DNA of 38,820 bases. Source: Actinomycetes bacterium. GTDB lineage: Bacteria > Actinomycetota > Actinomycetes > Jiangellales > Jiangellaceae. This document shows positions 1,102-30,896 of the stretch, piece after piece. Position 1 is the first letter of the stretch, and each line of letters begins with the position of its first letter. The stretch is taken from the NCBI GenBank assembly GCA_021793295.1, contig JAJYTA010000022.1, positions 1 to 38,820 on the forward strand, written 5' to 3'. Made by a program: the position numbers and the translations under genes. The notes beneath the pieces are model-generated. The model was given only the letters and a program-made list of their open reading frames with translations. It made no database searches and was not told the DNA's origin.

Positions 1102-1156
1102 GTATGTGAGTGGGCTCGGCCACCCGAGAACGGCGACTGCGCGTCGACGGCATGGT

Positions 1157-1162
1157 TAAGCT
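1157..1162 (+). promoter_or_regulatory. -10-like box for SARP regulator (leaderless)
   Basis: TAAGCT is followed by 7 nt and ATG 1170. This fits the TAnnnT-N6/7-start pattern seen at other genes here and is the main reason for choosing 1170 as the SARP start. No clear -35 is visible. Confidence 0.4.
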
Positions 1163-1169
1163 GACCGCG

Positions 1170-3977
1170 ATGGCTGTTGAGGGGACCAGCGGCGGCTCGC
1201 GCCAAGAGCTGTCGATCACGATCCTCGGCCCGGTGAGTGCGTGGCGTGGCGGCGTCGAACTGGCGCTGCCCGCGGGCCGGCCCAGTGTGGTGTTGGCCGT
1301 ACTGGCGCTGCGTCCCGGCTCCGTCGTGGGCCTCGACGTGCTGGAAGAGTATCTGTGGCCCGACCAGCCGCCGGAGCGTCCGCGCAGCACCATCCAGACT
1401 CATGTCGCTCGGCTGCGCCACGTCGTCGGCCGCGACACGATCCGTGCGGTCGCCGGTGGGTACGTCCTCGACGTGGCGCCCGACGCCGTCGATCTCGGGG
1501 CGTTCCGGGCTCTCGTGTCCGCGGCCACCGCCACGGCTGAGCCGCGCAACGAGCTCGACCTGCTCAACCGCGCGTTGTCGCTCTGGCGTGGTGCCCCGTT
1601 GTCCGGGTTGACCCCCGATCACGTCGAGCGCGAGCGGGCCACGGCCATCGTCGAGGAACTGCTCAATGCGACCGAACGCGCCAACGAATTGCGACTTCAG
1701 CTCGGTCACCTCGATGGACTACAGCGATCGCTGCGTGCGTTGGTCGCTGCGCATCCGTGGCGGGAGCGAACATGGGCCCAGCTGATGTTGACCCTCTACC
1801 GGCAGGGCCGACGGAGCGAAGCGCTGGCTGCATTCCATGACGTCGGGCATGTCCTGCGCGACGAGCTCGGCATCGACCCGGGCTCGGAACTGGTCACGCT
1901 GCATCGCCGCATCCTCGAAAACGACTCGACGCTGCTGGAACCCGAAACCTCGCCGGCGCGGCCGTACACCCGCCCGGCCCAATTGCCACCACCCGTGCCG
2001 GATTTCATCGGCCGCGAACAGCAGGTCGAGCATCTGGTCGACGTGCTCACCGGTCCCGCCGCGGCCACCAGAGTCGTGCTGATCTCCGGCCCAGGCGGTT
2101 CCGGCAAGTCCACGCTCGCGATCCACGTCGCCCACCGCGTTCGGGAGCACTATCCCGACGGGCAGCTGGTCGCCGAATTGCGAGGTCCACACGGGCGGAC
2201 CGAACACGGCGACGTCCTCGGGCGCCTGCTTCGATCCCTGGGGGTCGCCGCGGCCGAGGTGCCGGCCGACGTCGCCGAGCGGGCCAGTCTGTTCCGGACG
2301 CTGTGCGATGGCCAACGGCTCCTGCTGATCCTCGACGACGCGCACATCGCCGACGATCTCCCGCGGTTGATTCCCGGCGGCGAGATGTGCGGGGTGATCG
2401 TCACGAGCCGACCACCGTTGACCAATGTGCCCGCAGCCGCCCGCGTCGACCTCGGCTTCTTCGGCGAGGCCGATTCGGGCCGGCTGCTCACGTCCATCGT
2501 CGGCGCTGAACGCACCTCGAGCGACCCGGAGTCGGCAGCGGCGATCAGTGCGGCGTGCGAAGGCTCGCCGTTGGCACTGCGGATCGCCGGCGGACGGATC
2601 GCGGCCCGGCCCACGTGGCCGTTGGCTCATTTCGCGCAGCGACTCACCGCGGGCAACCGCCTCGACGAGCTCGCCATGGGCGGACTCGGTGTACGGGCGA
2701 TGCTCGAAGCGAGTCACGACGACCTCGAACCACAGACCGCACAGCGGTTGCGGTTGCTGGCGGCCGCCCCGATTCCCGCGATCGACGTCGAGTTCGCCGC
2801 GGTTGCCTGGGACGTCGATGACGACGACGCGCAAGCGTCGTTGGAGGCGCTGGCCGACGTTCGGTTGATCGAACCCACGGGACCGGGCCACTACACCTGG
2901 CACGATCTGGTCAACGACTACCTGAACGATGACGGCGACCCAGCCGACCAGGCCGCTGTGGCTGCCGCGACTCGCCGGCTCATGCGCTACTACCTGCGCA
3001 GCCTCGACAACGCCAAGTACGTGTTCCGCCCGGGAGGCACCAACCGCGACACTTCATCGTGGTACCCGCACGACGTCGCCGGGCGAACGTTCGAAAGCCA
3101 AGTCGCCGTCCACACGTGGCTGCATCCGCGCCATCACCTCATCGCGGGGTTGGCCCGGCGGGTCCTGACGACGCCGGGTACGCCGGATTCGGCGGATGCC
3201 GCCCAGGCCGCAGCGTTGATGTTGCTGCTCGGGTCGGTGGCCTACGAGTGTTGTGACGATCGAGAGCATCTGGAGAACACCGCGCGCGCTGTCCTGGCGG
3301 CCGAGGAACAGCTGTCCGACCGGTTCTTCGTCTCGGCCGCGTGGCACAGCGTCAGCCTGGCGCTCAGCGAGGAGATGCGCATCGACGAATCGCTGGAAGC
3401 AGCCGCTCGGGCGCTGGCGATTCGCCGCGAGATCGGGGACCGGTTCGGCGAGGTGACGTTGCTGAACAACATGGCGATGCTGCACCAGCACGCCGGGCGG
3501 CATCACGAGGCCGCCGAGTTACTGGAACGGTGCGTGACCACCGAGGACCCCCTCCCGCCTGAGGTCCGGGCCTGTTGCCTGCGGAATCTCGGGGAGGTTC
3601 AGCTGAGTCTCGGTCGGCTCGACGATGCTCGCCGCAGCCTGCAAGCCGCTGTCGCGACGTGCCCGCCCGAGCCGGTTTCGCGCGACGCCTTCTACCAAGC
3701 GGCCGCGGAGGCATCGCTGTACCTGCAGTGTGGTGATCACGACGCCGCGTTCGCGTCGTGCACCGAGGCGGCGGCGGTGGCCGAGAAGCTGGGGGCGTCG
3801 TCCCTGCAGGCCGTGGCGTGGGTCCAGCACGGGCGTATCCATGCCGCGGTGGGAGCGACGGCCGATGCCGTGCGCCTGTGGCGGGATGCCATGGCCGTCC
3901 CAGCGGGATTGGACGACGCCACGGCTGCGGAGGTGCGCCGGTTGATCGCCGAGGCCACCGGCTGCGGAGCGTCCTGA
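1170..3977 (+). CDS. AfsR/SARP-family transcriptional regulator (wHTH-BTAD-NB-ARC-TPR)
   Basis: This 935-residue protein has the AfsR architecture. The order is an OmpR-like winged helix (about 15-105), a bacterial transcriptional activator domain (about 110-260), an NB-ARC/STAND ATPase with Walker A GPGGSGKS at 307-314 and a Walker B-like LLLILDD ending near 390, and C-terminal TPR-like helical repeats. SARPs bind direct repeats overlapping -35 regions and activate secondary-metabolite or stress genes; the STAND and TPR parts are thought to sense a ligand or partner. No biosynthetic cluster lies next to it, so the target is unknown. ATG 1170 is chosen for the TAAGCT box 7 nt upstream; GTG 1110 and ATG 1152 are in-frame alternatives without a clear ribosome-binding site. 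Its stop overlaps the next start (TGATG), which implies translational coupling. Confidence 0.9.
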   Translation: MAVEGTSGGSRQELSITILGPVSAWRGGVELALPAGRPSVVLAVLALRPGSVVGLDVLEEYLWPDQPPERPRSTIQTHVARLRHVVGRDTIRAVAGGYVLDVAPDAVDLGAFRALVSAATATAEPRNELDLLNRALSLWRGAPLSGLTPDHVERERATAIVEELLNATERANELRLQLGHLDGLQRSLRALVAAHPWRERTWAQLMLTLYRQGRRSEALAAFHDVGHVLRDELGIDPGSELVTLHRRILENDSTLLEPETSPARPYTRPAQLPPPVPDFIGREQQVEHLVDVLTGPAAATRVVLISGPGGSGKSTLAIHVAHRVREHYPDGQLVAELRGPHGRTEHGDVLGRLLRSLGVAAAEVPADVAERASLFRTLCDGQRLLLILDDAHIADDLPRLIPGGEMCGVIVTSRPPLTNVPAAARVDLGFFGEADSGRLLTSIVGAERTSSDPESAAAISAACEGSPLALRIAGGRIAARPTWPLAHFAQRLTAGNRLDELAMGGLGVRAMLEASHDDLEPQTAQRLRLLAAAPIPAIDVEFAAVAWDVDDDDAQASLEALADVRLIEPTGPGHYTWHDLVNDYLNDDGDPADQAAVAAATRRLMRYYLRSLDNAKYVFRPGGTNRDTSSWYPHDVAGRTFESQVAVHTWLHPRHHLIAGLARRVLTTPGTPDSADAAQAAALMLLLGSVAYECCDDREHLENTARAVLAAEEQLSDRFFVSAAWHSVSLALSEEMRIDESLEAAARALAIRREIGDRFGEVTLLNNMAMLHQHAGRHHEAAELLERCVTTEDPLPPEVRACCLRNLGEVQLSLGRLDDARRSLQAAVATCPPEPVSRDAFYQAAAEASLYLQCGDHDAAFASCTEAAAVAEKLGASSLQAVAWVQHGRIHAAVGATADAVRLWRDAMAVPAGLDDATAAEVRRLIAEATGCGAS

Positions 3978-19718: not shown

Positions 19719-20324
19719 TCAGCCGGACGGGTCGGCGAGGCGAACCGAGGCGATCAGCCAGCCCCCGGCCGGCTCGGCGTACACGAGCCCGAGATCGAGC
19801 TTCATGCCGGAGTCGTAGGTCAGCACGCCGCGGGTTTTCGTGGCCTCGCCGGGATCGTCGACGTCGACGTCGACGAGCGTGCCCGTCGGGATGTCGGCGA
19901 CGCGCACGTCGCGATACATCGCCGCCTGCTCGTCGGTGAGCCACGAGGACACCGCGGCGAACCACGCCTGCTGACCCAGCGTCGTCTGGGTGAAGGTCCG
20001 GCCGAATCCCGTCGCCACTTCGGCCCACCCGCCGGCCGAAGCGCCGATGACGTCAGCGGTCCCTGTGATCGACGGCGCAGCCGTCGACGATGGCGACGAC
20101 GTGGACATCGGCTCACTTGGTGTGGCGGAGACGGGAGACGAGCCGGCCGAGGGCAGCGGCACCGGACGAGGGCCGGTGGAGAGGATCGCCCACACCGCGC
20201 CCCCGCAGGCCAGCGCCGTCACGGCGACCAGCAGCCACAGCCAGTGCTGCCGAAGGAATCCGATGACGCCGACGGCACGCCCGGACACGCGAGCTCGTGG
20301 CGCAGGGACGACGGGAAACGTCAC
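19719..20324 (-). CDS. Tad operon accessory membrane protein, possibly VirB8/TcpC-like
   Basis: A 201-residue protein: a cytoplasmic basic N-terminus, one transmembrane helix (about 25-47), a Ser/Pro/Thr linker, then a soluble extracytoplasmic domain of about 115 residues. That domain (from about 87) begins with helices (GWAEVATGFGRTFTQTT, QAWFAAVSSWLTDEQAAMYRDV) and ends in beta strands (GTLVDVDVDD, RGVLTYDSGMKLDLGLVYA, GWLIASVRL). This alpha-then-beta order behind one anchor resembles the NTF2-like fold of VirB8 and TcpC in conjugation and secretion systems. That is an inference from pattern, not a match to a known motif. The GTG start overlaps the upstream stop (GTGA), so it is the last gene of the Tad operon. 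Confidence 0.75.
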   Translation of the reverse strand: MTFPVVPAPRARVSGRAVGVIGFLRQHWLWLLVAVTALACGGAVWAILSTGPRPVPLPSAGSSPVSATPSEPMSTSSPSSTAAPSITGTADVIGASAGGWAEVATGFGRTFTQTTLGQQAWFAAVSSWLTDEQAAMYRDVRVADIPTGTLVDVDVDDPGEATKTRGVLTYDSGMKLDLGLVYAEPAGGWLIASVRLADPSG

Positions 20325-20620
20325 AGCAACCCGTCGTCGTCATCAGCGTCGGCGAGCCTGCGCTGCAGGGACGTCAGTGGATGATCGGGCGGGGATGCCG
20401 GCAGCGTCGGTGGCCACGGCATGGCGTGCGCATCGAGCACGGCGCTGAGCGTGTGGTCGGCTTCGCGGGCGCGGCGCTGCAACAGCGGGAGCAGCAGCGC
20501 CTGGCCGAGATCAAACGGATCGGCCGCCAGCGCGGCGAGGGCCGCATACAGCGACCGCCGCGCGGTCAGGGCGTCGGCCGCCGCGTCGAGCTGGTTCCTG
20601 GTGTCGTCGAGTTCGGGCAT
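20321..20620 (-). CDS. Small Tad operon protein, function unknown
   Basis: A 99-residue cytoplasmic protein, largely helical: ELDDTRNQLDAAADALTARR, then a leucine/alanine-rich segment (LYAALAALAADPFDLGQALL), then a proline-rich stretch and an acidic tail (ADADDDDGLL). No recognisable family. ATG 20620 is preferred because GGAGGAG precedes it by about 11 nt; an in-frame GTG at 20692 would add 24 residues but lacks a ribosome-binding site. It shares a GTGA overlap with the next gene. Conservation only inside Tad loci would support a role in the apparatus. Confidence 0.65.
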   Translation of the reverse strand: MPELDDTRNQLDAAADALTARRSLYAALAALAADPFDLGQALLLPLLQRRAREADHTLSAVLDAHAMPWPPTLPASPPDHPLTSLQRRLADADDDDGLL

Positions 20621-20738
20621 GGGGGTGAGAGCTCCTCCCACAGGTGGGGTGTCTACTGCCTGTGGGTGCGCAGCGTGGGTGCTTCGTGACACCTGCGGCG
20701 ACGATCTGGTAGCACGATGCGTCGTCCCGACGAGGCCG

Positions 20739-21167
20739 TCACAGTCTCGTCGTCACCTCGACGGTCGCCTCGCCGGTGGCTTCGAGCGTGGTGATGCCGA
20801 TGAGCGACAGGATGCGCGCCGGTTCGGTCGTATCGGTTCGAACGACGATGGTATTGCCCTCCAGCGTGACCGAGCCGGCAACGCCGGCCGCGGACAGGTG
20901 GTTTCGGGCGGCGGCGACGGCGCGGCGCCGATCGAGACCACTCGAGCCGGTCACCACCGACCCGCTGATGTGCTGACCGGCAGCCCGTGCCGCCTCAGCG
21001 GCGACGTTGTCGGCGCGCTGCTGAGCCGTCATTTGGGCGCGGCCGTCGAACACCAGGCCCACCATCGCGATCAGCGCCAGGGTGACGACTGCGAAGATCA
21101 AGGTGATGCTGCCGGTGTCGCTGCTCGTCCTGAGCCTGGTCGTCCGCGTCATCCGAGTGCTCCTCAT
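20739..21167 (-). CDS. TadG-like pilus assembly protein
   Basis: A 142-residue protein with a short basic N-terminus followed by GSITLIFAVVTLALIAMVGL (19-38), the hydrophobic N-terminal helix typical of the TadG-like (putative Flp pilus-assembly) family, and VFDGRAQMTAQQRADNVAAEAAR just after it. The C-terminal region is alpha/beta and extracytoplasmic. It lacks the long von Willebrand domain of full TadG, as usual in the short actinobacterial versions. ATG 21167 overlaps the preceding TadE stop. It is probably a minor pilin-like or assembly component. Confidence 0.82.
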   Translation of the reverse strand: MRSTRMTRTTRLRTSSDTGSITLIFAVVTLALIAMVGLVFDGRAQMTAQQRADNVAAEAARAAGQHISGSVVTGSSGLDRRRAVAAARNHLSAAGVAGSVTLEGNTIVVRTDTTEPARILSLIGITTLEATGEATVEVTTRL

Positions 21168-21595
21168 CGTTCGCGGTATGTGTCGACGGGGCTGACGGCG
21201 GTTGCGCGGACGGTGACCGTCGGCAAGGCCAACGGAAGGTCGGCCACCTTGAGCGGACAGCTCACGGTGACCGTCACCCGGCCCGGATCGCCGAGGGCCG
21301 CTCGGAGCCCGGAGGTGTCGACCTCAACCGTCGTGCTCAGACAAGCCAGGCCCTGATCGGCCAGGGAGCGGCGGGCGACTTCGGCTGCGGCCGTTTCCCC
21401 GGCCGTCGCTGTGCGTTGCAGCGACGCTGCCCGGGCCGCGTCCGCAGCCGCCTGCTCGACCGTCCCGTCGGCCAGGGCGTGTCGGCCGGCGAACGTAAGC
21501 AACGCGATGAGCAGGAGGAGGCCCGGCGCCAGGACCGCCATCTCGAGTGTCGCCGAGCCACGTTCGGCGGCGCCCGCACGGCCTGCGCGGGTCAT
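21164..21595 (-). CDS. TadE-like pseudopilin (second copy)
   Basis: A 143-residue protein with the TadE hallmark: a basic N-terminus, then GSATLEMAVLAPGLLLLIALL, in which the short leader ends at Gly and the mature helix has Glu at position +5, as required by prepilin peptidase-type processing. The mature part contains two cysteines (LACLSTTVEVD and VTVSCPL) that may form a disulfide outside the membrane. ATG 21595 overlaps the preceding stop (ATGA); ATG 21607 in the same frame is an alternative. Together with the neighbouring TadE-like gene it probably forms minor pilin subunits. Confidence 0.85.
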   Translation of the reverse strand: MTRAGRAGAAERGSATLEMAVLAPGLLLLIALLTFAGRHALADGTVEQAAADAARAASLQRTATAGETAAAEVARRSLADQGLACLSTTVEVDTSGLRAALGDPGRVTVTVSCPLKVADLPLALPTVTVRATAVSPVDTYRER

Positions 21596-21993
21596 GGATC
21601 GGTCCATCGGCGAATCGGCGCCGTCGACGACTGCGTCACGTCGATCATCCATCCGGGGATCAGCGTCGTCGACGCAGCCGACACGGTCACGGTGACATCG
21701 TCGGCACGCGCCGACTGGGTGATGGTGCGCACGCTCAGGATCGAGTCGCTCCCGGCGCTGGAGATGAATTCGGCGGCACGCTCGGCTCCGCCGTCGCCGT
21801 TGTTCATGCTGGCGGTGCGGGCACCTTCTTGGGCGGCGGTGAGCGCGATGTTGCGCGCGTGGAACCAGATGCCGGCGTGCACGATGCCGAAGATCAGCAG
21901 GAAGACCGCCGGCCACAGAATGACGGTCTCCAGGGTGGCCGAGCCGCGGTCGCGCCCGTACCTGCGCGGACTCGATCGATTCGACGGGACCAC
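21592..21993 (-). CDS. TadE-like pseudopilin (first copy)
   Basis: A 133-residue protein with a basic N-terminus and GSATLETVILWPAVFLLIFG (17-36), the TadE-type prepilin-like segment with Glu at +5 after the presumed processing site. The following helix (HARNIALTAAQEGARTASM) is the characteristic TadE AAxxGAR region. The remainder is a small beta domain. The start is GTG 21993, 4 bp after the TadC stop. It overlaps the next tadE-like gene by 4 bp. The leaders of the two copies differ, so they are probably distinct subunits rather than recent duplicates. Confidence 0.85.
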   Translation of the reverse strand: MVPSNRSSPRRYGRDRGSATLETVILWPAVFLLIFGIVHAGIWFHARNIALTAAQEGARTASMNNGDGGAERAAEFISSAGSDSILSVRTITQSARADDVTVTVSAASTTLIPGWMIDVTQSSTAPIRRWTDP

Positions 21994-21997
21994 GGAG

Positions 21998-22897
21998 TCA
22001 GCCGATCTGCATGGCGACGGGAGCGGCCAGGATCAACATGAACACCACCGACGTCGCCGCCAACGGTGCCGTGGCACGCTCGGTTCGCGCGCCGGCGCGG
22101 GCTTGGTCACCGGCGAGGATCTCACTGCGCATGGCCGAGGCCCTGGCCCGCAGGATGTCGTAGACGGTGGCGCCTTCGTGAGCTGACATCTGCATCACGT
22201 CGCCGGTCTCGGCGAGTTCGGGCAGCCGGAGTTCCTCGCCCACGGTGCGCAGCGCGTCCCAGGCTGGCGTTCCTGCCCAGCGGGCGTGAGCGAGCTCGTC
22301 GCGCACGCGGTGGAACGCCCAGGAATCGCCGATCTGGGCGGCCGACTCGAGCGCTTGTGTGGTTCCGGCACCCGCCGCTCGTTCGAGCGCGACGAGGTCG
22401 ATGTACGAGGTCATGGCGCGCTGGAACTCCGCCCGTTTGGCCTTGGCCAGGTCTGCTGCGTTGTACAAGGGCAGGTATGACAGCGCGATGGCCGCGACGA
22501 TGCCAGCCCCGACCGGGACCGTGAACGGCAGCGAGATGCCGTTGACAGCCAGGGACAGGGTGCACGCCCACGGCAGGCACAGGCCGATCGCACCGTACAG
22601 CGCTCGCTCGCCGAGGAACTGCGGCACGCTTTTGCGGAGCAGAGCCAGATCACGGTGCGGCACGTGCAGCAGAGCCGCACCGGCCGCCCGCCGCAACACC
22701 ACCCGGCCGAGGCGGTCGGTGTAGCCGTTGTCGCCCACCAGGTCGGCCGTCGCCGTCGCGGTGCCGGTCAACCGCGCCGCGGTATGCGCTGGATGCAGCT
22801 GCCGTGTTCGTCGGCCGATGAGTTCTCTGAACAGCAGAATCAGTCCGGAGCCCGCGCCCAAGCCCAGCACGACGGCCAACTGCGTGGTGGACATCAT
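21998..22897 (-). CDS. tadC: TadC-like inner-membrane platform protein
   Basis: A 299-residue type II secretion F-domain protein with N- and C-terminal transmembrane helices and a cytoplasmic helical domain (about 130-250; TSYIDLVALERAAGAGTTQALESAA, GDVMQMSAHEGATVYDILRARA). It should pair with TadB to form the membrane platform driven by the TadA ATPase. ATG 22897 is chosen because its ATG overlaps the TadB stop (ATGA); a longer reading to 22990 would run far into tadB. Length is normal for actinobacterial TadC. Confidence 0.9.
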   Translation of the reverse strand: MMSTTQLAVVLGLGAGSGLILLFRELIGRRTRQLHPAHTAARLTGTATATADLVGDNGYTDRLGRVVLRRAAGAALLHVPHRDLALLRKSVPQFLGERALYGAIGLCLPWACTLSLAVNGISLPFTVPVGAGIVAAIALSYLPLYNAADLAKAKRAEFQRAMTSYIDLVALERAAGAGTTQALESAAQIGDSWAFHRVRDELAHARWAGTPAWDALRTVGEELRLPELAETGDVMQMSAHEGATVYDILRARASAMRSEILAGDQARAGARTERATAPLAATSVVFMLILAAPVAMQIG

Positions 22898-23772
22898 GGG
22901 CCTTCCGCATCGGCGCCGGCCGCGAGGATGCGTGGCTGGCGTGGGGTGGTCGTGATCTGTCGCATCCACACCAGGCACCCGACGTAGCACGCGAGCAGCC
23001 CGCTGAGGATCAGCTGGCCGGTGGCCGTCCGGTAGGGGTCGGCGTACGGGCTGAGCAGCATCAGACCCAGCCCGGACGCGCTGATGATGGTCACCAGGCG
23101 GGCCGTGGTGCGGCCTTTCGCCTGTTCGGCGTCGATGATCCGGCGGGCTCGCACGTCGTCACGCACGGCCGCCGCGAGACCGTCCAGCACACTGCTGAGC
23201 TGGTTACCCCGCCGATTCGCGCCGAGCAGCAGGGCGGCGACGAGGAAGTCGCCGGTGGCGTCATCGAGATCGTCGGCGAACGCCCGCAGCGCTGCCGAGA
23301 TGTCCCAGCGCGCCTGCAGCCGGGCGACCAGGCGAGCCACCTCGGGGCGAATGGGCTCCGGCGACGAGCGCAGGCTGGCCGTGATGGCCTGCTCGATGCC
23401 GATCCCGACGCCAAGCACGCTCGACAGGTTCTGCGCCCACTCGCTCATCGCCTCGAGCCGGGCGATCTCGGCCTTGCTCGACGACGTCTGAAGCAGCACC
23501 GGCAGCCCCCACACGGCCGCCGGAATGATCAGCACGGCAAGCACCCATCCGGTGATCAACCACACCGCGACGCCCACGCCGGCGGCCATGGCCACGCGAC
23601 GCCGTGAACGTCGCTGCTGGGGCGTGTGCCCGCGCAGCGCCGCCAGCCGGCGCCGGATCCGGTCGTGGCGCGGGGTGCCGGCATCGACGCGGACCTTGAC
23701 CGAGCCGAAGCCCGTCGCGGCCAGTCCGGCCAGGCCCGCGATGGCGGTCACGGCTGCGAGCGCCGGGATCAC
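22894..23772 (-). CDS. tadB: TadB-like inner-membrane platform protein
   Basis: A 292-residue type II secretion F-domain protein. Transmembrane segments lie at the N-terminus, at about 63-92 (VAMAAGVGVAVWLITGWVLA), and twice near the C-terminus (LVTIISASGLGLMLL, LILSGLLACYVGCLVW). The central cytoplasmic domain (about 105-225) includes GVGIGIEQAITASLRSSPEP and LLLGANRRGNQLSSVLDGLA, as in TadB proteins. Start GTG 23772 overlaps the tadA stop (GTGA). It is predicted to couple ATPase motion to pilin assembly with TadC. Confidence 0.91.
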   Translation of the reverse strand: MIPALAAVTAIAGLAGLAATGFGSVKVRVDAGTPRHDRIRRRLAALRGHTPQQRRSRRRVAMAAGVGVAVWLITGWVLAVLIIPAAVWGLPVLLQTSSSKAEIARLEAMSEWAQNLSSVLGVGIGIEQAITASLRSSPEPIRPEVARLVARLQARWDISAALRAFADDLDDATGDFLVAALLLGANRRGNQLSSVLDGLAAAVRDDVRARRIIDAEQAKGRTTARLVTIISASGLGLMLLSPYADPYRTATGQLILSGLLACYVGCLVWMRQITTTPRQPRILAAGADAEGP

Positions 23773-25286
23773 GCCGGGCCTCCTGGTCGATGTGTCCGTG
23801 GGTCGTAGCCGTGTGCCGCGAGTTCACCGATCCAGGTCGGCGCGGACGCCGGAACGAGGCCGGCTCCGGACCGCTCCTCGAACACGTCGGTACTGGCCGG
23901 CATGCCCCGCTCGCCGGGTTCGAGCGCGACGATCTGCGCGACGCGACGCTGCCGGCGCACCGGTGCGTCCGGGTCGTAGCCGCCCTCGCGTCGCTCGACG
24001 TGGACGATCAGATTGACGTGCTGCGCGATCTGCCGGTAGGCGAACTCGGCGGTGACGTGCTGGCCGGCCTCCATGGCACACGTCACCAGTCGTTCGATGG
24101 CGGCGTGGGCGGAGTGAGCGTGCACGGTGGACAACGATCCAGCGCCGGACTGCATGGCCTTGAACATCGGTAACACCTCACGCCCGCGGACCTCTCCGAC
24201 GATGAGGCGGTCGAGATTCATCCGCAGCGCGTCGTAAACCAGTTCGTCCAGCGAGATCTCACCGGCCACGCGTCCGTCGGCGCCTCGTTCACCACTGCCG
24301 GTGCGCGCCTCCCAGGCGATGATGCGGTGGTGGCGATCACGCATGTGATGCAGCCCGAGCTCGTACTCGGTCTCGATGGTGCCGAGCTTCTCCTCCGCGT
24401 GGATCTCGTTGGCCAGCGCTCGGACGAGTGTCGTCTTGCCGGCACCCATCGACCCCGACACCACGATGCTGCGACGGGCGCGAACCGCGGCGCGCAAGAA
24501 CTGTGCGGCCTGCGGAGGCAAGGTCGTGCCGTCGACGAGGTCGTCGAGATCGATGTCGACCAGCCGGTGCCGGCGGATGACCACGACCGGCTGGTGGGTG
24601 GTCCAGCCCGACGCGGCGAGCCGGTGACCGCCGTGCAGGTGGAGGTGGAGACTCGGGCTGGCGGTGGAGAACGTGCGCTCGCTGGCGCCGCCACGCGTGG
24701 CCAGGAACGTGAGCATGTCGATGAGCTCGTCTTCGGAGTCGACGATGGGCGGTCGCCTGCTGATGACGCCGTGGTGATCGATGACCACCACGGGTTCGGC
24801 GCCGTAGACCTCGATGTTCTCGATGGACGGGTCGTCGACCAATGGTTGCAGCCGGCCCAAACCGAACAAGGAGTCGAAGATCGCCTGCGCCAACTGTGTC
24901 TGGTGGTCGACGTCCATGGCCCCGGCCCCGGCGGTGACCGTCTGGCGAACGTGCTCGTCCAGGATCTGGGCGATGACCTCGCGGCCCACCGCGCGGCGTT
25001 CGTCCTCGGCGGTGTTTTCGTCGACCTGGTCCGCCAAGCGCGCAGCTGCCTGTTGCCGGAAGGCACGTACCTGAGCCCAGTCGACGTCGCCGTCGGTGTG
25101 CTGCTCGGTACGAGCCGGGGCAACGGTGACCTCGGAGCGTGGGTGCACCGGGGGCATCGCGCTGAGAATCTCGCGGGGGCTTCGGGACGGCCTGGTGAAG
25201 GGAACAGACGCGGGCTCGATCACTGGCGGCCGGTCGAAGATCGGCAGCCGCGTGATTTCGTCGTCGGCCGGCTCGTTCATGCTCAT
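23769..25286 (-). CDS. tadA: TadA/CpaF-type secretion ATPase
   Basis: A 505-residue hexameric motor ATPase of the type II/IV secretion GspE superfamily. Walker A is GSMGAGKTT (278-286), the Asp-box region is GTIETEYELGL (302-312), Walker B is RLIVGEVRG (360-368) and the His-box is STVHAHS (386-392). The N-terminal domain includes FGLGRLQPLVDDPSIENIEV (141-160), as in CpaF. The catalytic residues are all present, so the motor should work. The first 70 residues are a disordered, proline-rich extension. GTGA/ATGA overlaps tie it to tadB downstream and the MinD-like gene upstream. Confidence 0.95.
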   Translation of the reverse strand: MSMNEPADDEITRLPIFDRPPVIEPASVPFTRPSRSPREILSAMPPVHPRSEVTVAPARTEQHTDGDVDWAQVRAFRQQAAARLADQVDENTAEDERRAVGREVIAQILDEHVRQTVTAGAGAMDVDHQTQLAQAIFDSLFGLGRLQPLVDDPSIENIEVYGAEPVVVIDHHGVISRRPPIVDSEDELIDMLTFLATRGGASERTFSTASPSLHLHLHGGHRLAASGWTTHQPVVVIRRHRLVDIDLDDLVDGTTLPPQAAQFLRAAVRARRSIVVSGSMGAGKTTLVRALANEIHAEEKLGTIETEYELGLHHMRDRHHRIIAWEARTGSGERGADGRVAGEISLDELVYDALRMNLDRLIVGEVRGREVLPMFKAMQSGAGSLSTVHAHSAHAAIERLVTCAMEAGQHVTAEFAYRQIAQHVNLIVHVERREGGYDPDAPVRRQRRVAQIVALEPGERGMPASTDVFEERSGAGLVPASAPTWIGELAAHGYDPRTHRPGGPA

Positions 25287-26113
25287 ACGCCCACGCTCCC
25301 CCCAACGCGCGCGTCGGGGTGACCGGTCGGCCGGCCGAGAACCCGCCGCCGGCGGTCGTCGACGTCAGCCAACTCGGCGATGGCGGCCCGCCCGGATCGG
25401 ATCAGGCGCGAGTTGCCGACCCGAGTGAGACTCGTACGTACGCGCTCCCGGCCGTTGACGCGTTCGGCGGTGAGCGGATCCCAGGCGACGCTCGCCCACA
25501 CCGGCAGGGTGGTGGCGTCAGCGGCCTCGTTCGCCCGATGTGGCCGCCCGTCGCCGACCAGGAGAAGTCCGCGCCGTTCCATGACGGCGTCGGCTTCGGT
25601 GCCAGGCAGCTGATCGGCGTTCGCGCGGACGGCCACGAGGTCGTCCAGTCCAGTCCGGCTCACCACCGCCAGCAGGTCTGCGGTGCGTAACAAGGGGTCG
25701 GGTCCGTGCCGCATGCCCAGCCGTCCTGCGTCGACGATGACATCGACGCCGTGGCCCGAGACTGCCTTCAGCAGCGTGGCCAAGGATTCCCAGAACGTCT
25801 CGGTCAGACTCGCCGCCTGCGCTCGGGTGGCGAGGCCAGGCAGCACCAGTCGGCCTCGGTCGTCGGTCAAGGCGATCGTCTGACCGCGGAGCGTGTCCAG
25901 GTTCAAGGCACCGCCGCGATGGGCGAGGGCCAAGTTGATCAGGCTGAGCTGATGGTCGTACTCACCGCGCAGGTGGCCCGCCTTGATGCTGCTGCTGCCG
26001 CAGACGTCGGCCTCGACCAACAAGACCGGGCGTGGCCAGGCCAAGGTGAGAACCAATGCCGTGGTGGTGACGCCGGGGGCGCCGCGCGCGGACGTCATCG
26101 CGATGACCGTCAC
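25283..26113 (-). CDS. MinD/TadZ-like protein with degenerate P-loop
   Basis: A 276-residue protein of the SIMIBI MinD/ParA fold, in the position where TadZ/CpaE sits. TadZ-type proteins place the Tad machine at a pole. The expected deviant Walker A motif KGGxGKTT reads R10-G-A-P-G-V15-T-T here, so both lysines are replaced. The switch-like VLLVEADVCGSS and VDVIVDAGRLG segments are kept. Nucleotide binding may therefore be weak or absent, as in other known pseudo-ATPase TadZ proteins. A GTG start at 26113 overlaps the upstream gene; its ATGA overlap with tadA shows tight coupling. Confidence 0.83.
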   Translation of the reverse strand: MTVIAMTSARGAPGVTTTALVLTLAWPRPVLLVEADVCGSSSIKAGHLRGEYDHQLSLINLALAHRGGALNLDTLRGQTIALTDDRGRLVLPGLATRAQAASLTETFWESLATLLKAVSGHGVDVIVDAGRLGMRHGPDPLLRTADLLAVVSRTGLDDLVAVRANADQLPGTEADAVMERRGLLLVGDGRPHRANEAADATTLPVWASVAWDPLTAERVNGRERVRTSLTRVGNSRLIRSGRAAIAELADVDDRRRRVLGRPTGHPDARVGGSVGV

Positions 26114-26841
26114 TGCTGTTCGTCCTCATCGGAGGCTGCATCGGGTTCCTGCGCGGAATCCAGCACGATGGCCACCCGGCCGGTCGCGACCCGGGCGGCG
26201 AGCTCGCCGGCGACGTCGTCATCGACGACCACGTCGACGATGACCTGGCCGTGATCGGTGATCCCAGAGACGCTCACCACGGTGGCGGGGATGGACGGTG
26301 GTGACTCGGCGGGGGGATCGTCTCCGGGGTTCGGAGTGTCGAAAATGCGCACGGGATCGCCCGGAACCATCTCGTGCTGGGGCAGCTGTGCTTCGGTGAC
26401 GGCGACGCCCACCACCGTCTCACCCGCCGCCGGGACGGCGGCGGAGGTGACGGCGCTCTCCGTCAGCAGGGTGCCGGCCGTCAGGTCGGCGGCGGCGTGC
26501 TGGCCCACGATTCCGTCGCGGCGGTCGGCCGGTATCGGTGCGACCGCGGGGTCCGGGGCCGCGCGGGCGATGGTGAGGTCGTCGGTGGTGATGATCTCAC
26601 CGCGGTGGACGTCGGCGGCGACGGCCAGCACCTGTGTGGTGTCCCCGGAGAGCTGGGCCAGATAAGCCGCTCCGGCGCCGCAGACCGCGAGCAGGCCGAC
26701 CCCTAGGCCGATCAGCGCGGGACGTCGACGATAGCGCGGGTCGGACGTTCCGATGTCGCGCACGCCCGTAGCCCCGCTCAGGCCGGGGTCGATCGTGGGA
26801 CGCGCCGGGGCCTCGACGGGGCCGTCGCTTGTTCGGGTCAT
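26110..26841 (-). CDS. CpaB/RcpC-like SAF-domain protein
   Basis: A 243-residue protein with a cytoplasmic N-terminus, one transmembrane helix (about 44-64, ALIGLGVGLLAVCGAGAAYL) and an extracytoplasmic SAF domain (about 70-135; VLAVAADVHRGEIITTDDLTIA, GIVGQHAAADLTAGTLLTESAV). RcpC/CpaB proteins in Tad loci are thought to sit in the periplasm or wall zone and bind the pilus channel or peptidoglycan. It is the first gene of the ten-gene operon; ATG 26841 has GGGAAGG nearby, and a promoter with a consensus -35 lies about 100 bp upstream. The C-terminal tail is acidic. Confidence 0.85.
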   Translation of the reverse strand: MTRTSDGPVEAPARPTIDPGLSGATGVRDIGTSDPRYRRRPALIGLGVGLLAVCGAGAAYLAQLSGDTTQVLAVAADVHRGEIITTDDLTIARAAPDPAVAPIPADRRDGIVGQHAAADLTAGTLLTESAVTSAAVPAAGETVVGVAVTEAQLPQHEMVPGDPVRIFDTPNPGDDPPAESPPSIPATVVSVSGITDHGQVIVDVVVDDDVAGELAARVATGRVAIVLDSAQEPDAASDEDEQQ

Positions 26842-26859
26842 GCGCCTTCCCTAGAAGCC

Positions 26860-26869
26860 GTAGATCTAC
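26860..26869. repeat. 10-bp palindrome in the Tad operon leader
   Basis: GTAGATCTAC is a perfect palindrome lying in the leader, 18 bp before the first gene of the operon. It is too short to interpret with confidence; a protein site or a chance occurrence are both possible. Confidence 0.35.
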
Positions 26870-26938
26870 ATGGACGCCGGCGGAAATGGTGGCCTGACGG
26901 TGCGGAACCAGTGCGGAGGTGAAACGGGCGAGCAGTGA

Positions 26939-26966
26939 ATGCTAGTAATGCCGTCGGCGTTGTCAA
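26939..26966 (-). promoter_or_regulatory. Promoter of the Tad operon
   Basis: On the minus strand the sequence reads TTGACA (26961-26966), 16 nt, then TAGCAT (26939-26944). The -35 is perfect and the -10 matches four of six. It lies between the sigma-like gene and the first Tad gene, predicting a leader of about 90 nt. This is a vegetative-type promoter rather than an obvious alternative-sigma site. Confidence 0.65.
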
Positions 26967-27002
26967 ACAGGGGTCTTCCTGACGTCGAGACGGTTGTCTA
27001 TC

Positions 27003-27797
27003 TCAGGGATGAGCGCTGTGCTCGCGTACAGCTGAGGCCAAGCGTTTGGTGGACCTCAGGCAGCGCTGCCGGACGGTGGCCGGCTGCAGCCCGAGGGTCT
27101 GGGCCACCGCCAGTGCACCACCCTTCTCGCCGGGAGCCGGGCAGTAGACCCGGCTGAGCAAGGAAGCGTCGTCGGGGCTGATGACTCCGGCGTCGACACC
27201 CCAGGCGAGCGTGGTGAGCAGTTCCGCCGCCGGTGCGGGTGTGTGCTGGACGAACAGCGCCTCGCCCGACTCCAAGACATGGTCGTCGACAGCGGAGGGT
27301 GCGTGATCGTCCACCGTCGAGGTGAACGCGCCGAGAGCGTCCATGCACAGGTTCACGGCGACTTTGCGCGTTCTGCGCGTGACCGGGTAGGTGGCGATGC
27401 TGTGCCACAGTGCGGCGACGGCCGCTGCCGTGAGCTGGTCGATGTCGCCGCGAATCCCTGGTGCACCCTGCCGGTGGGCGCGGCGCGCGAGGTTGACCGC
27501 GCGGCCGAGCATGGCTTGCAGCACCAGCCGTCCGGCGACGGCGTCGCCGTCGACGATGTGCCGCGTGAGCAGACCGATCAGGATCGAGTCGGCTGATTCG
27601 GGTTGCGACCTGCGCGCCTGGGTGACCACGTCGAGCGCGTCGGCCAACGACACGCACGCGTTCAGCGCCGGGATGTTCCAGCGTGCCGGCGGGCGCCGGT
27701 GAGCCATGGCGCTCCACTCGGTGTTGAGCTGATCGGTGATCAAGGTCATCGAGGTCATCGAGGTTGTGGTGCGACCGGGAGTGGCGGTGGTGGTCAC
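27003..27797 (-). CDS. Sigma factor-like regulator next to the Tad operon
   Basis: A 264-residue protein resembling the sigma-70-like helix-turn-helix proteins found beside actinobacterial Tad genes. A sigma region 2-like segment (ILIGLLTRHIVDGDAVAGR, GDIDQLTAAAVAALWHSIAT, YPVTRRTRKVAVNLCMDAL) is followed by a C-terminal region 4-like HTH (VAQTLGLQPATVRQRCLRST). I chose GTG 27797 because GAGGAG lies 5 nt upstream; a longer reading to 27959 has no ribosome-binding site. It lies directly upstream of the Tad operon on the same strand and is divergent from the LysM-BTAD gene. It may control one or both; the target promoter is unknown. Confidence 0.75.
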   Translation of the reverse strand: MTTTATPGRTTTSMTSMTLITDQLNTEWSAMAHRRPPARWNIPALNACVSLADALDVVTQARRSQPESADSILIGLLTRHIVDGDAVAGRLVLQAMLGRAVNLARRAHRQGAPGIRGDIDQLTAAAVAALWHSIATYPVTRRTRKVAVNLCMDALGAFTSTVDDHAPSAVDDHVLESGEALFVQHTPAPAAELLTTLAWGVDAGVISPDDASLLSRVYCPAPGEKGGALAVAQTLGLQPATVRQRCLRSTKRLASAVREHSAHP

Positions 27798-27857
27798 GGG
27801 TGCTCCTCGCCGTGGATATGCAGGGGATACGGACCCGTTCAGCCGACCGGGCGGTGG

Positions 27858-27930
27858 TAGCCCTGGGGATAGCCCTGGCCGGGTCCGAACGGCGACGAGC
27901 GGTTGCCCTGTATGGATGCCGGTTGCCCTG
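27858..27930. repeat. Direct repeats in the promoter region of the LysM-BTAD gene
   Basis: TAGCCCTGG occurs at 27858-27866 and 27870-27878 (12 bp apart). CGGTTGCCCTG occurs at 27900-27910 and 27920-27930 (20 bp apart). All four share GCCCTG. SARP-type regulators bind direct repeats spaced by about 11 or 22 bp, so this could be the site of the adjacent BTAD protein. The spacings here are similar but not identical. Confidence 0.5.
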
Positions 27931-28046
27931 AGTGCTTTCTCCACGCAGGCATAGGGCACCCTGGACGCCTTCCTTCGGCGGTCGTGTCACACGCCAGGAC
28001 TCACCGTCACCCACAGGTCACGACAGGCTCGACGAGGAGGCTTGTG

Positions 28047-30896
28047 ATGATCGGCTCGAGGCGACGGCGCGCGGCGTCCGCGGCGGATGTCGCGCGCGGA
28101 TTGGCCGCATTGGTGGTCTTGACGGTTCTCGTCGTGGGTGTACCGGTCGCGCTCTGGGTGATCGACGGCTCGCCACTGCCCAGCGCGGTCCCCGCTGTGT
28201 CGGACGTGTGGGCAACCATCACCAGCCCGGACGACGGCACGTTCTTTCTCGACGTTCTCGTCTTCGCGGGCTGGCTGGGTTGGGCGACGTTCGCGGTGAG
28301 CGTGCTCGTCGAGATTCCCGCCGCTCTGCGCGGCGTCCGAGCCCCGGCACTGCCCGGATTGGCCGCGCAACAGCGCGCTGTGGCCGCGCTCATCACCGCG
28401 ATCGCAGCGATCGTCCCGGCGTCCCAGATCGCTGCGGCCGAGACCGCGCCGTCGTCGGCTCCCGCGCAGCAGGGTCCATGGCAACCTGCGCCACCGGTGA
28501 CCACAGCGTTGGTCGAAGGCGGATCGGCGACGACACCCACTCCGGACGCACCCACATCACGGACGCATGAGGTCGTGGCCGGCGACACGCTCTGGGCCAT
28601 CGCTGAGCAGCATCTCGGCGATCCGAACCGTTACACGGAGGTCTATTCCGCCTCGACCGACACGGTGCAACCCGACGGCCGTCAGCTCACCGATCCCGAC
28701 CTCATCGTGCCCGGCTGGGTTCTGACGTTGCCGTCCGCCGGCGACCGGGGGACTTCGGAGCAGAGCCGGGTCGACCATGACGAGCCCGCCGAGGAACGTA
28801 CCCGAGCCGCGGAGCCCTCCGCTACGGTCGAACGGGACGAACCTGCAGGTGCCACCGAAGATGCAGTATCCATGACCCCGACCGGCGCCATCGGCGGACT
28901 CGTGCCCGAGGAGGCGCACGCCGCTGATGACGGCCTGGCGGCGGACACCGGCGTCGGCGAATCGCGCGACGAACCAGGGCCCGGCGGATTGCTACGCACC
29001 GCGGATGGCGTCGGCGCGGTGCTGGCCGCCGGATTGATCGCCGTGCTGGCCGCGCGGCGGGCGGTGAGCCAGCGGCGTCGCCGGGCTGGTCAGCGCTTGT
29101 CCACCGGCGCCACGGGCGATCGCGTGATCGAGATCCAGATGCGCCACGTCGCCGACGCGCCCGCGGTGGAGTTCGTGGATCGTGCGCTGCGCACCCTTGC
29201 CGCCACGCTGCATGCCCGCCGCCGAGCACTGCCGGCCCTGCGTGCTGCCCGGCTCACCCGCACGATGCTGGAGCTCTACCTGGACACACCCGACGAGCCG
29301 CCCGAACCGTTCGTCGATCTCGGGGAGCGACGAGTCTGGGGCCTGGCGGTCGGCACTGGTGCGGTTCTTCCGGCTGCTGCCGCGCGAGAACATCCGGCAC
29401 CGTTCCCGGGCCTGGTCACGCTCGGCCACGACACCGAGGACGGGCTCCTGTTGGTCGATCTCGAGCATCTGCGCTCGCTCGCCGTCACCGGCCCGGAAGC
29501 TCTCACTCAGGCGCTGATGACCGCCGTCGCTGCTGAGTTCGCAACGAGTCCGTGGGCCGACGACATCCGCGTCACGTTGGTCGGCGAGCGGGCGTGGAGC
29601 GAACTCGAGGTGCTCGAGACCGGCCGCATCCGGCGAGTCACCGACGTCGATCGGCTGCTCGACGAACTCGCCGTCCGGGCGGCGGACGACCGCGGACTGC
29701 TTGCCTCGGCCGGGATGAGTGATCTCGCCGCGGCCCGCGCCGCACAAGCCGCCGAAGCCGCGTGGACCCCGGAGATCCTCTTGCTCGCCGAGCCGCTCAC
29801 CGACGAGCGGCACACGCGGCTGGTCGCGTTGCTCGAGCACGAGCCCAGAGTGGCCATCGCCGCGCTCATCGGCGGTGGCAGTGGGGAAGCGAGGTGGCGG
29901 CTACGAATGACCGGCTCCGGTGGCGAGGCCACGGCCGTGCTCGACCCCCTCGGCATGACGTTGCGCCCACAGCTGCTCGACGCCGCGTCCTGCGGCCATG
30001 TCCTCAATCTGGTGCGCTCGTCCGACGAGGTCGTGGGTCAAGCCGTCCCGGAGCCTGACATGCGGGCCTGGCCTGTGCATCCGGTCGGACCATCGGCGCC
30101 CGCCGAGCCCGCCGAGCCCGCCGAGCCCGCGGAACCCGTCGAACCTGCCGAACCGACCGCGCCACGGCTCATCATGCTGGGGCCGGTGGAGGTGATCCAC
30201 ACCGCCGAACTCGGTGAACGCAACAAGCTCGGGCAGTTGACCGAGTTGGCGATGTTCATCGCGCTCAACCCCGGATGCGACAGCCAGGCCATCGACGATG
30301 CCATCTGGCCGGGATCCATCGTCACTCGGACCACGCGCAATACGGCGATCTCCAAGCTGCGCCGGTGGCTGGGTACCGACGCCCGGGGCGCGCCACTTCT
30401 CCCTCGGACCGAAGGACGTTACGCGTTCCAACCCGACGTGCGCAGCGACTGGGACGACTGGTGCGACTTGCTGCCGCAGGGTCCGCAGAACGCGACCAGT
30501 GACGATCTTCGTGCCGCGGTGGCGCTGGTCAAGGGACGGCCTTTCAGCGGACGGGGCCGCCGCTCGTACGCGTGGGTGGATCACCACGCTCAGGACATGA
30601 TCGCGGCCATCGTCGACGCGTGCCACGAGCTGGCCGTCCGGTCCTCGTCGGGCGGTGACCACCGTGAGGCGCTGCGCGTCGCGCTGCTGGGGTTGTCCAT
30701 CGAGCCCGGCGTCGAGCTGCTGTGGCGCGACCGGCTCAAGGCCGAAGTCATGCTCGGCGACCGTGAGACGGTGCTGCAGAGCATCGACCGGTTACGCAGC
30801 ACCACTGACGAGCTCGGCGGCGATCTCGACCCCGGCACCGAGGAGTTGATCGAGCAGATCCTGCATCACGGCGGGCGGGTCTCCGCCGCCGGTTGA
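28047..30896 (+). CDS. Membrane protein with LysM domain and C-terminal SARP-like (wHTH-BTAD) module
   Basis: A 949-residue protein. Three hydrophobic segments (about 18-38, 64-90, 113-132) are followed by a LysM domain (174-228; HEVVAGDTLWAIAEQHLGDP), a Ser/Glu-rich linker, a fourth transmembrane helix (about 321-340), a large cytoplasmic-looking region (about 345-680), an EPA repeat, and a winged-helix plus BTAD module (about 706-945; LTELAMFIALNPGCDSQAIDDAIWPG and ELLWRDRLKAEVMLGDRETV). LysM binds peptidoglycan and BTAD modules regulate transcription. A membrane-tethered regulator that reads wall state is the natural inference, also seen in family members beside actinobacterial Tad loci. 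ATG 28047 follows GAGGAGG by 6 nt; upstream in-frame ATG and GTG codons lack such a site. Confidence 0.85.
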   Translation: MIGSRRRRAASAADVARGLAALVVLTVLVVGVPVALWVIDGSPLPSAVPAVSDVWATITSPDDGTFFLDVLVFAGWLGWATFAVSVLVEIPAALRGVRAPALPGLAAQQRAVAALITAIAAIVPASQIAAAETAPSSAPAQQGPWQPAPPVTTALVEGGSATTPTPDAPTSRTHEVVAGDTLWAIAEQHLGDPNRYTEVYSASTDTVQPDGRQLTDPDLIVPGWVLTLPSAGDRGTSEQSRVDHDEPAEERTRAAEPSATVERDEPAGATEDAVSMTPTGAIGGLVPEEAHAADDGLAADTGVGESRDEPGPGGLLRTADGVGAVLAAGLIAVLAARRAVSQRRRRAGQRLSTGATGDRVIEIQMRHVADAPAVEFVDRALRTLAATLHARRRALPALRAARLTRTMLELYLDTPDEPPEPFVDLGERRVWGLAVGTGAVLPAAAAREHPAPFPGLVTLGHDTEDGLLLVDLEHLRSLAVTGPEALTQALMTAVAAEFATSPWADDIRVTLVGERAWSELEVLETGRIRRVTDVDRLLDELAVRAADDRGLLASAGMSDLAAARAAQAAEAAWTPEILLLAEPLTDERHTRLVALLEHEPRVAIAALIGGGSGEARWRLRMTGSGGEATAVLDPLGMTLRPQLLDAASCGHVLNLVRSSDEVVGQAVPEPDMRAWPVHPVGPSAPAEPAEPAEPAEPVEPAEPTAPRLIMLGPVEVIHTAELGERNKLGQLTELAMFIALNPGCDSQAIDDAIWPGSIVTRTTRNTAISKLRRWLGTDARGAPLLPRTEGRYAFQPDVRSDWDDWCDLLPQGPQNATSDDLRAAVALVKGRPFSGRGRRSYAWVDHHAQDMIAAIVDACHELAVRSSSGGDHREALRVALLGLSIEPGVELLWRDRLKAEVMLGDRETVLQSIDRLRSTTDELGGDLDPGTEELIEQILHHGGRVSAAG
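30102..30155 (+). repeat. Tandem 9-bp coding repeat (Ala-Glu-Pro)
   Basis: Six 9-bp units of the type GCCGAGCCC encode (A/V)EP or AEP steps between the cytoplasmic region and the winged helix of the LysM-BTAD protein. The first three units are identical; the last three have drifted. It is likely a rigid linker, and prone to length change. Confidence 0.8.

Follow-up and report, generated by a model that had tools for sequence, protein, structure and literature searches.

The window analysed here, a 38,820-nucleotide stretch of contig JAJYTA010000022.1 (C45) from the Jiangellaceae assembly GCA_021793295.1 (genome of 4.67 Mb, 99.99% complete), carries a tad locus, hereafter W, that encodes a motor, a platform and minor pilins and is devoid of a gene for the major pilin Flp. 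The W operon comprises ten minus-strand genes running from 26841 to 19719, in the order SAF/CpaB, TadZ, TadA, TadB, TadC, TadE, TadE, TadG and two small accessory genes. Six of its nine junctions are 4-bp overlaps and tadB overlaps tadC by 1 bp, while gaps of 4 and 46 bp separate tadC from tadE1 and tadG from the accessory gene acc123, respectively. Pfam recognised one SAF, one T2SSE, two T2SSF, two TadE and one Tad/TadG-like domain across the operon, with no match for TadZ, acc123 or the second accessory protein, acc201. Open reading frame coordinates and Pfam thus bear out the original prediction of ten tightly packed genes for platform, motor, MinD-like factor and three pilin-type proteins, TadZ being accepted in spite of its missing Pfam match.

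The first gene encodes a SAF-domain CpaB/RcpC-like membrane protein (26110–26841; 243 aa; SAF 35.7 bits), followed by a TadZ/MinD-like protein (25283–26113; 276 aa) that occupies an orthologous position in relatives and shows 71–76% identity within the W clade. The TadA/CpaF motor ATPase (23769–25286; 505 aa; T2SSE 93.2 bits) has Walker A and B motifs that are invariant across nine orthologues, and the platform consists of TadB (22894–23772; 292 aa; T2SSF 41.6 bits) and TadC (21998–22894; 298 aa; T2SSF 27.2 bits). The two minor pilins, TadE1 (21592–21993; 133 aa; TadE 54.8 bits) and TadE2 (21164–21595; 143 aa; TadE 30.6 bits), share the prepilin-like site G/SATLE and precede a TadG-like protein (20739–21167; 142 aa; Tad 37.5 bits). 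An AlphaFold2 model of TadE1 (pLDDT 86) combines a long N-terminal helix with a sheet domain and found no significant match in the PDB. Some starts were reassigned in our judgement, that of TadE2 to about 21595 instead of 21916, and those of TadC, the sigma-like gene and the LysM-BTAD gene described below to about 22894, 27797 and 28047.

Absence of flp across the W lineage

A further 13 Haloactinopolyspora and Jiangella genomes contain W orthologues, with TadA identities of 72–77%, and the tadC–tadE1 junction could be read in 13 loci, namely the window and the 12 orthologous loci in which it falls inside the assembly. In all 13, tadC and tadE1 abut, the spacing varying between an overlap of 4 bp and a gap of 7 bp, and none yielded a Flp match, whereas nearly all relatives have 227–521 bp at this position. 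The same pipeline (E < 1e-3) placed Flp between tadC and tadE1 in 38 of 41 related loci outside the W group, which came from Jiangellaceae and other actinobacterial families and included two paralogues in W's own genome as well as a short contig of Jiangella rhizosphaerae (L092). The three exceptions were one in which a separate count did detect Flp (L065), one with a weak match (L153) and one belonging to a different tad type (L149). In the window, the site where flp would be expected is reduced to four bases (21994–21997, minus strand); a hidden Markov model (HMM) built from 14 related Flps gave no match between tadC and tadE1, and a search of the other frames of this interval for a hidden flp found none.

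The plasmid relatives follow the usual arrangement, as all six annotated examples have a gene of 60–76 aa between tadC and tadE, five of which matched the Flp HMM at E < 1e-4 and the sixth, from Micrococcus luteus, weakly. In all six records this gene is labelled 'hypothetical protein' (for example L165, 10287–10487), so that gene tables falsely suggest a missing Flp.

W's own genome encodes four tad-type ATPases, the other three belonging to the paralogous loci I (contig C62), E (C307) and an Rv3654c-type locus (C18). Each of these has one Flp-like gene of 60–77 aa, and strong Flp HMM hits in this genome fell only at these three loci; across the 14 whole genomes they fell almost solely at tad loci other than W. 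An orphan flp elsewhere in W's own genome was thereby rejected, all three flp genes being part of other tad operons. The absence of Flp noted in the original prediction is therefore real and fixed across the W lineage, not a gene overlooked in one genome.

Peptidase, regulators and accessory genes

The original prediction also remarked on the lack of a TadV/CpaA prepilin peptidase. No A24 peptidase gene lies within the window, yet there is nothing peculiar in this: W's genome and its 13 relatives each encode exactly one (14/14), and in W's genome the gene follows mltG-aroE on a different contig, its product having a GFGD motif and a conserved aspartate upstream of it. A peptidase dedicated to W was consequently rejected, and gene content indicates that one unlinked A24 gene serves all tad loci of each genome. 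In actinobacteria tadV is reported as unclustered with the tad genes (Angelov et al., PMC4322843), and its absence from W is ordinary and typical of the phylum.

Two regulatory genes were correctly predicted beside the operon. Upstream lies a gene for a sigma-like regulator of 264 aa (27003–27797, minus strand); the W protein itself has no Pfam match, and 11 of 15 members of its family match Sigma70_r4 (sigma-70 region 4) weakly, with a best E of 0.0015. A sigma-like gene also stands upstream of the I-type tad operon, and a relative on an M. luteus plasmid shows 26% identity over 261 aa. A LysM-BTAD membrane regulator is encoded divergently (28047–30896, plus strand), its BTAD domain (31.6 bits) passing the Pfam cut-off and its LysM domain falling just short (19.4 against 20.9 bits). 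Its divergent orthologue is present at every W-type locus whose contig extends that far, except L048. The proposal that these regulators are dedicated to W and set it apart did not survive comparison, as most relatives have a LysM(/BTAD) gene after tadG, and the tad locus of the Cutibacterium acnes plasmid has a sigma gene upstream, both regulator types having already been reported there (PMC3666418). Partners of these two kinds are the rule in the known plasmid-type actinobacterial Tad family.

The two accessory genes at the 3' end, likewise as predicted, differ in their distribution. The protein acc201 (19719–20324, minus strand) has one membrane helix, a variable linker and a conserved extracellular domain, modelled as helices with four strands; it was conserved in the W loci checked, was not found elsewhere in the sample, and its fold returned no significant match in the PDB. 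Comparisons gave no support for three candidate identities, namely a shortened TcpC/VirB8 (profile comparison, hhalign probability 0.2%), the lipoprotein adjoining the tad loci of genus g6, and a 273-aa protein of the type IV secretion system (T4SS) cluster. Among W loci, acc123 (20321–20692, minus strand) occurs in W's own genome only. It resembles a small gene adjoining tcpC in the I locus, and matches to many I-type loci were weak but repeated, at about 48% over 37 aa with E values between 1e-3 and 5e-2. The gene may be left over from a T4SS linkage that I-type loci kept and W lost.

Descent and selection

W shows the features of a Tad system, with a TadA-type ATPase, TadB and TadC, TadE/TadF-type minor pilins together with TadG, and a peptidase available in the genome. 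It also has the SAF, TadZ and LysM-BTAD genes that accompany the tad core in the plasmid-type LysM-BTAD class, in agreement with its placement in the tree. The order SAF-TadZ-TadA-TadB-TadC followed by TadE-TadE-TadG is shared with plasmid loci of C. acnes (linear plasmid), Rhodococcus fascians (pFiD188), M. luteus (pCW.Ay) and Xylanimonas (pXCEL01), in which a LysM(/BTAD) gene usually comes next; tadV lies outside the locus there, as it does for W. The upstream sigma gene is shared with C. acnes (PMC3666418), and the sigma-like relative in M. luteus is carried by pCW.Ay. W differs from these loci in lacking the gene of 60–76 aa between tadC and tadE, in its divergent LysM-BTAD gene and in having no adjacent T4SS genes. 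It is a plasmid-type Tad without its pilin that has settled in the chromosome, not a new system.

Among the paralogues, the I-type loci (L008, L055) have about 60% TadA identity to W, the same kind of sigma-like gene and a LysM-BTAD gene, but possess Flp and lie divergent to a T4SS cluster. The mycobacterial-type Rv3654c locus shares TadA, TadB, TadC, TadE and TadG with W, but has its own Flp/DUF4244-like pilin of 60 aa and neither SAF nor LysM-BTAD. In a tree of TadA, TadB and TadC together, all 14 W loci grouped together, nested within Flp-bearing loci, with support for the W node of 0.55 or 0.999 and blurred by rerooting. A single loss of flp, in the ancestor that the Haloactinopolyspora and Jiangella loci share, is the simplest account.

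The ratio of non-synonymous to synonymous substitution rates (dN/dS) was 0.10–0.46 for whole W genes, including tadE and tadG, and 0.56 for one 62-codon fragment of tadC. Changes at positions invariant in all other loci numbered only 4 of 212 in W; the corresponding figure for the I clade, which bears Flp, was 2 of about 195. A relaxed constraint on motor and platform following the loss of Flp was rejected, since none was seen. By these values the operon is under purifying selection and functional.

No conjugation or T4SS genes adjoin W, whereas they are present beside the I-type loci and L092. The L092 contig carries a W-like Tad that retains Flp and T4SS genes, together with a ParA-like gene, and possibly represents the donor form of the W locus. 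In the I-type loci (L008, L055, L160), the T4SS cluster includes VirB4-like and TcpC genes by Pfam and, by eye, VirB6-like, PrgI-like, VirD4-like and cell-wall hydrolase genes. This chromosomal pairing of a T4SS with a divergent Flp-bearing Tad occurs in both Haloactinopolyspora and Jiangella and is similar to the linear plasmids of C. acnes and M. luteus.

Possible products of the locus

With its pilin gone, W must either build from minor subunits alone or work with a sister operon. The reading we favour, in which our confidence is evenly poised, is that W is a derived and maintained plasmid-type Tad (type IVc) that lost flp, and that it forms a minor-pilin scaffold or short pseudopilus, probably in cooperation with the Flp of a sister locus. 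The TadA motor and the TadB/TadC platform would handle TadE1, TadE2 and TadG, extruding or assembling them, and the single unlinked A24 peptidase would mature all three, cutting TadE1 and TadE2 at G/SATLE. The most likely product would be a short pseudopilus spanning the cell wall or a minor-pilin scaffold, which would probably cooperate with Flp from one of the Flp-bearing sister loci. The LysM-BTAD protein might sense the wall and exert control, with the sigma-like protein as a further putative regulator.

The precedent for such cooperation is M. luteus, where the Flp pilus of tad-2 depends on the Flp-poor tad-1, the pilin-like products of tad-1 are of TadE/F size and tadV is unlinked (PMC4322843). 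The genomes with W resemble this arrangement in having TadE/F-sized pilin-like open reading frames, a second locus that bears Flp and a single unlinked peptidase; W additionally carries genes for SAF, TadZ, sigma-like and LysM-BTAD proteins, and M. luteus is without TadZ. Given this precedent, in which cooperation is proven, cooperation appears slightly more likely for W than autonomy. Every genome examined (14/14) contains both W and the Flp-bearing I locus; the joint occurrence of W, I and E, however, amounts to one phylogenetic event within the core genome of two genera and so does not prove cooperation. Weighing further against the favoured reading, the complete machinery and the separate regulators of W make independence equally possible, and the I and E loci appear sufficient in themselves.

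Alternatively, TadE1 and TadE2 might polymerise without Flp into a short pseudopilus, acting as a secretion piston or surface structure with acc201 as a wall-side partner, an explanation we hold as a tentative second. Since the loss of Flp is fixed across the lineage, the TadE-based secretion or surface system of the original prediction is a live possibility, but 'minimal' does not describe a locus that kept every other part. Retention of all other tad parts and of its own regulators under selection would suit such a device, as would the predicted long helix and globular domain of TadE1, reminiscent of a pilin, and the restriction of acc201, a conserved membrane protein, to W. Autonomy is made plausible by the Kil system of Myxococcus xanthus, in which pseudopilins partly compensate for loss of the major pilin (PMC8460266). 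On the other hand, TadE1 can be aligned over its full length with its counterpart in the Flp-bearing paralogues and shows no shift towards a major pilin, the operon contains no candidate secreted substrate, and the M. luteus precedent favours cooperation.

It is rather unlikely that W builds a standard Tad pilus from genes divided between loci, using the Flp of I or E in trans as its main subunit. The original prediction had raised co-conserved flp and peptidase genes elsewhere as a sign of this arrangement, and the outcome was split: the peptidase was found elsewhere and co-conserved, as were Flps of other loci in 14/14 genomes, and W retains the invariant positions of motor and platform, but every Flp lies inside its own complete tad operon, and W's genome has neither an orphan or extra flp nor a W-specific copy. 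That W is a decaying relic heading for loss is highly improbable, for although flp and any adjoining T4SS genes are gone and acc123 is absent from the other W loci, the genes are intact wherever the sequence is complete, dN/dS is low for whole genes and the loss of flp predates the split of the two genera.

The retention of tad loci devoid of Flp by Gram-positive bacteria, and the role of the TadE/TadG minor pilins, are questions raised by work on M. luteus. W offers a clean natural experiment in this respect: 13 related loci lack the pilin gene alone, the operon is otherwise selected, the same cells hold paralogues with Flp, and the species are culturable and named. If the autonomous explanation were true, W would be a Gram-positive pseudopilus machine evolved from a Tad pilus, without any major pilin, which polymerises TadE-type pseudopilins into a piston or secretion device across the wall and has the lineage-specific acc201 as its partner. 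A literature search found no paper on tad in Jiangella.

The genes neighbouring W (a sir2-like gene, an editing-domain gene and a hydrolase gene) are mostly conserved in the orthologous loci, and at 1110–3977 the window contains a second very large plus-strand gene whose start resembles a BTAD/SARP-type regulator. ComEC is present, but it is widespread and so says little on DNA uptake. Among the other tad loci, those of genus g6 in the same family (L056, L057, L058, L060) have extra genes between tadG and LysM-BTAD and lie on apparent mobile elements with relaxase-like, DUF2637 and excisionase-like genes. The E-type Tad operon (L009, 15105–18000; L062, L063, L064, L068) is followed immediately by a gene of WXG100 size (about 90 aa) and then by a large type VII secretion-like gene.

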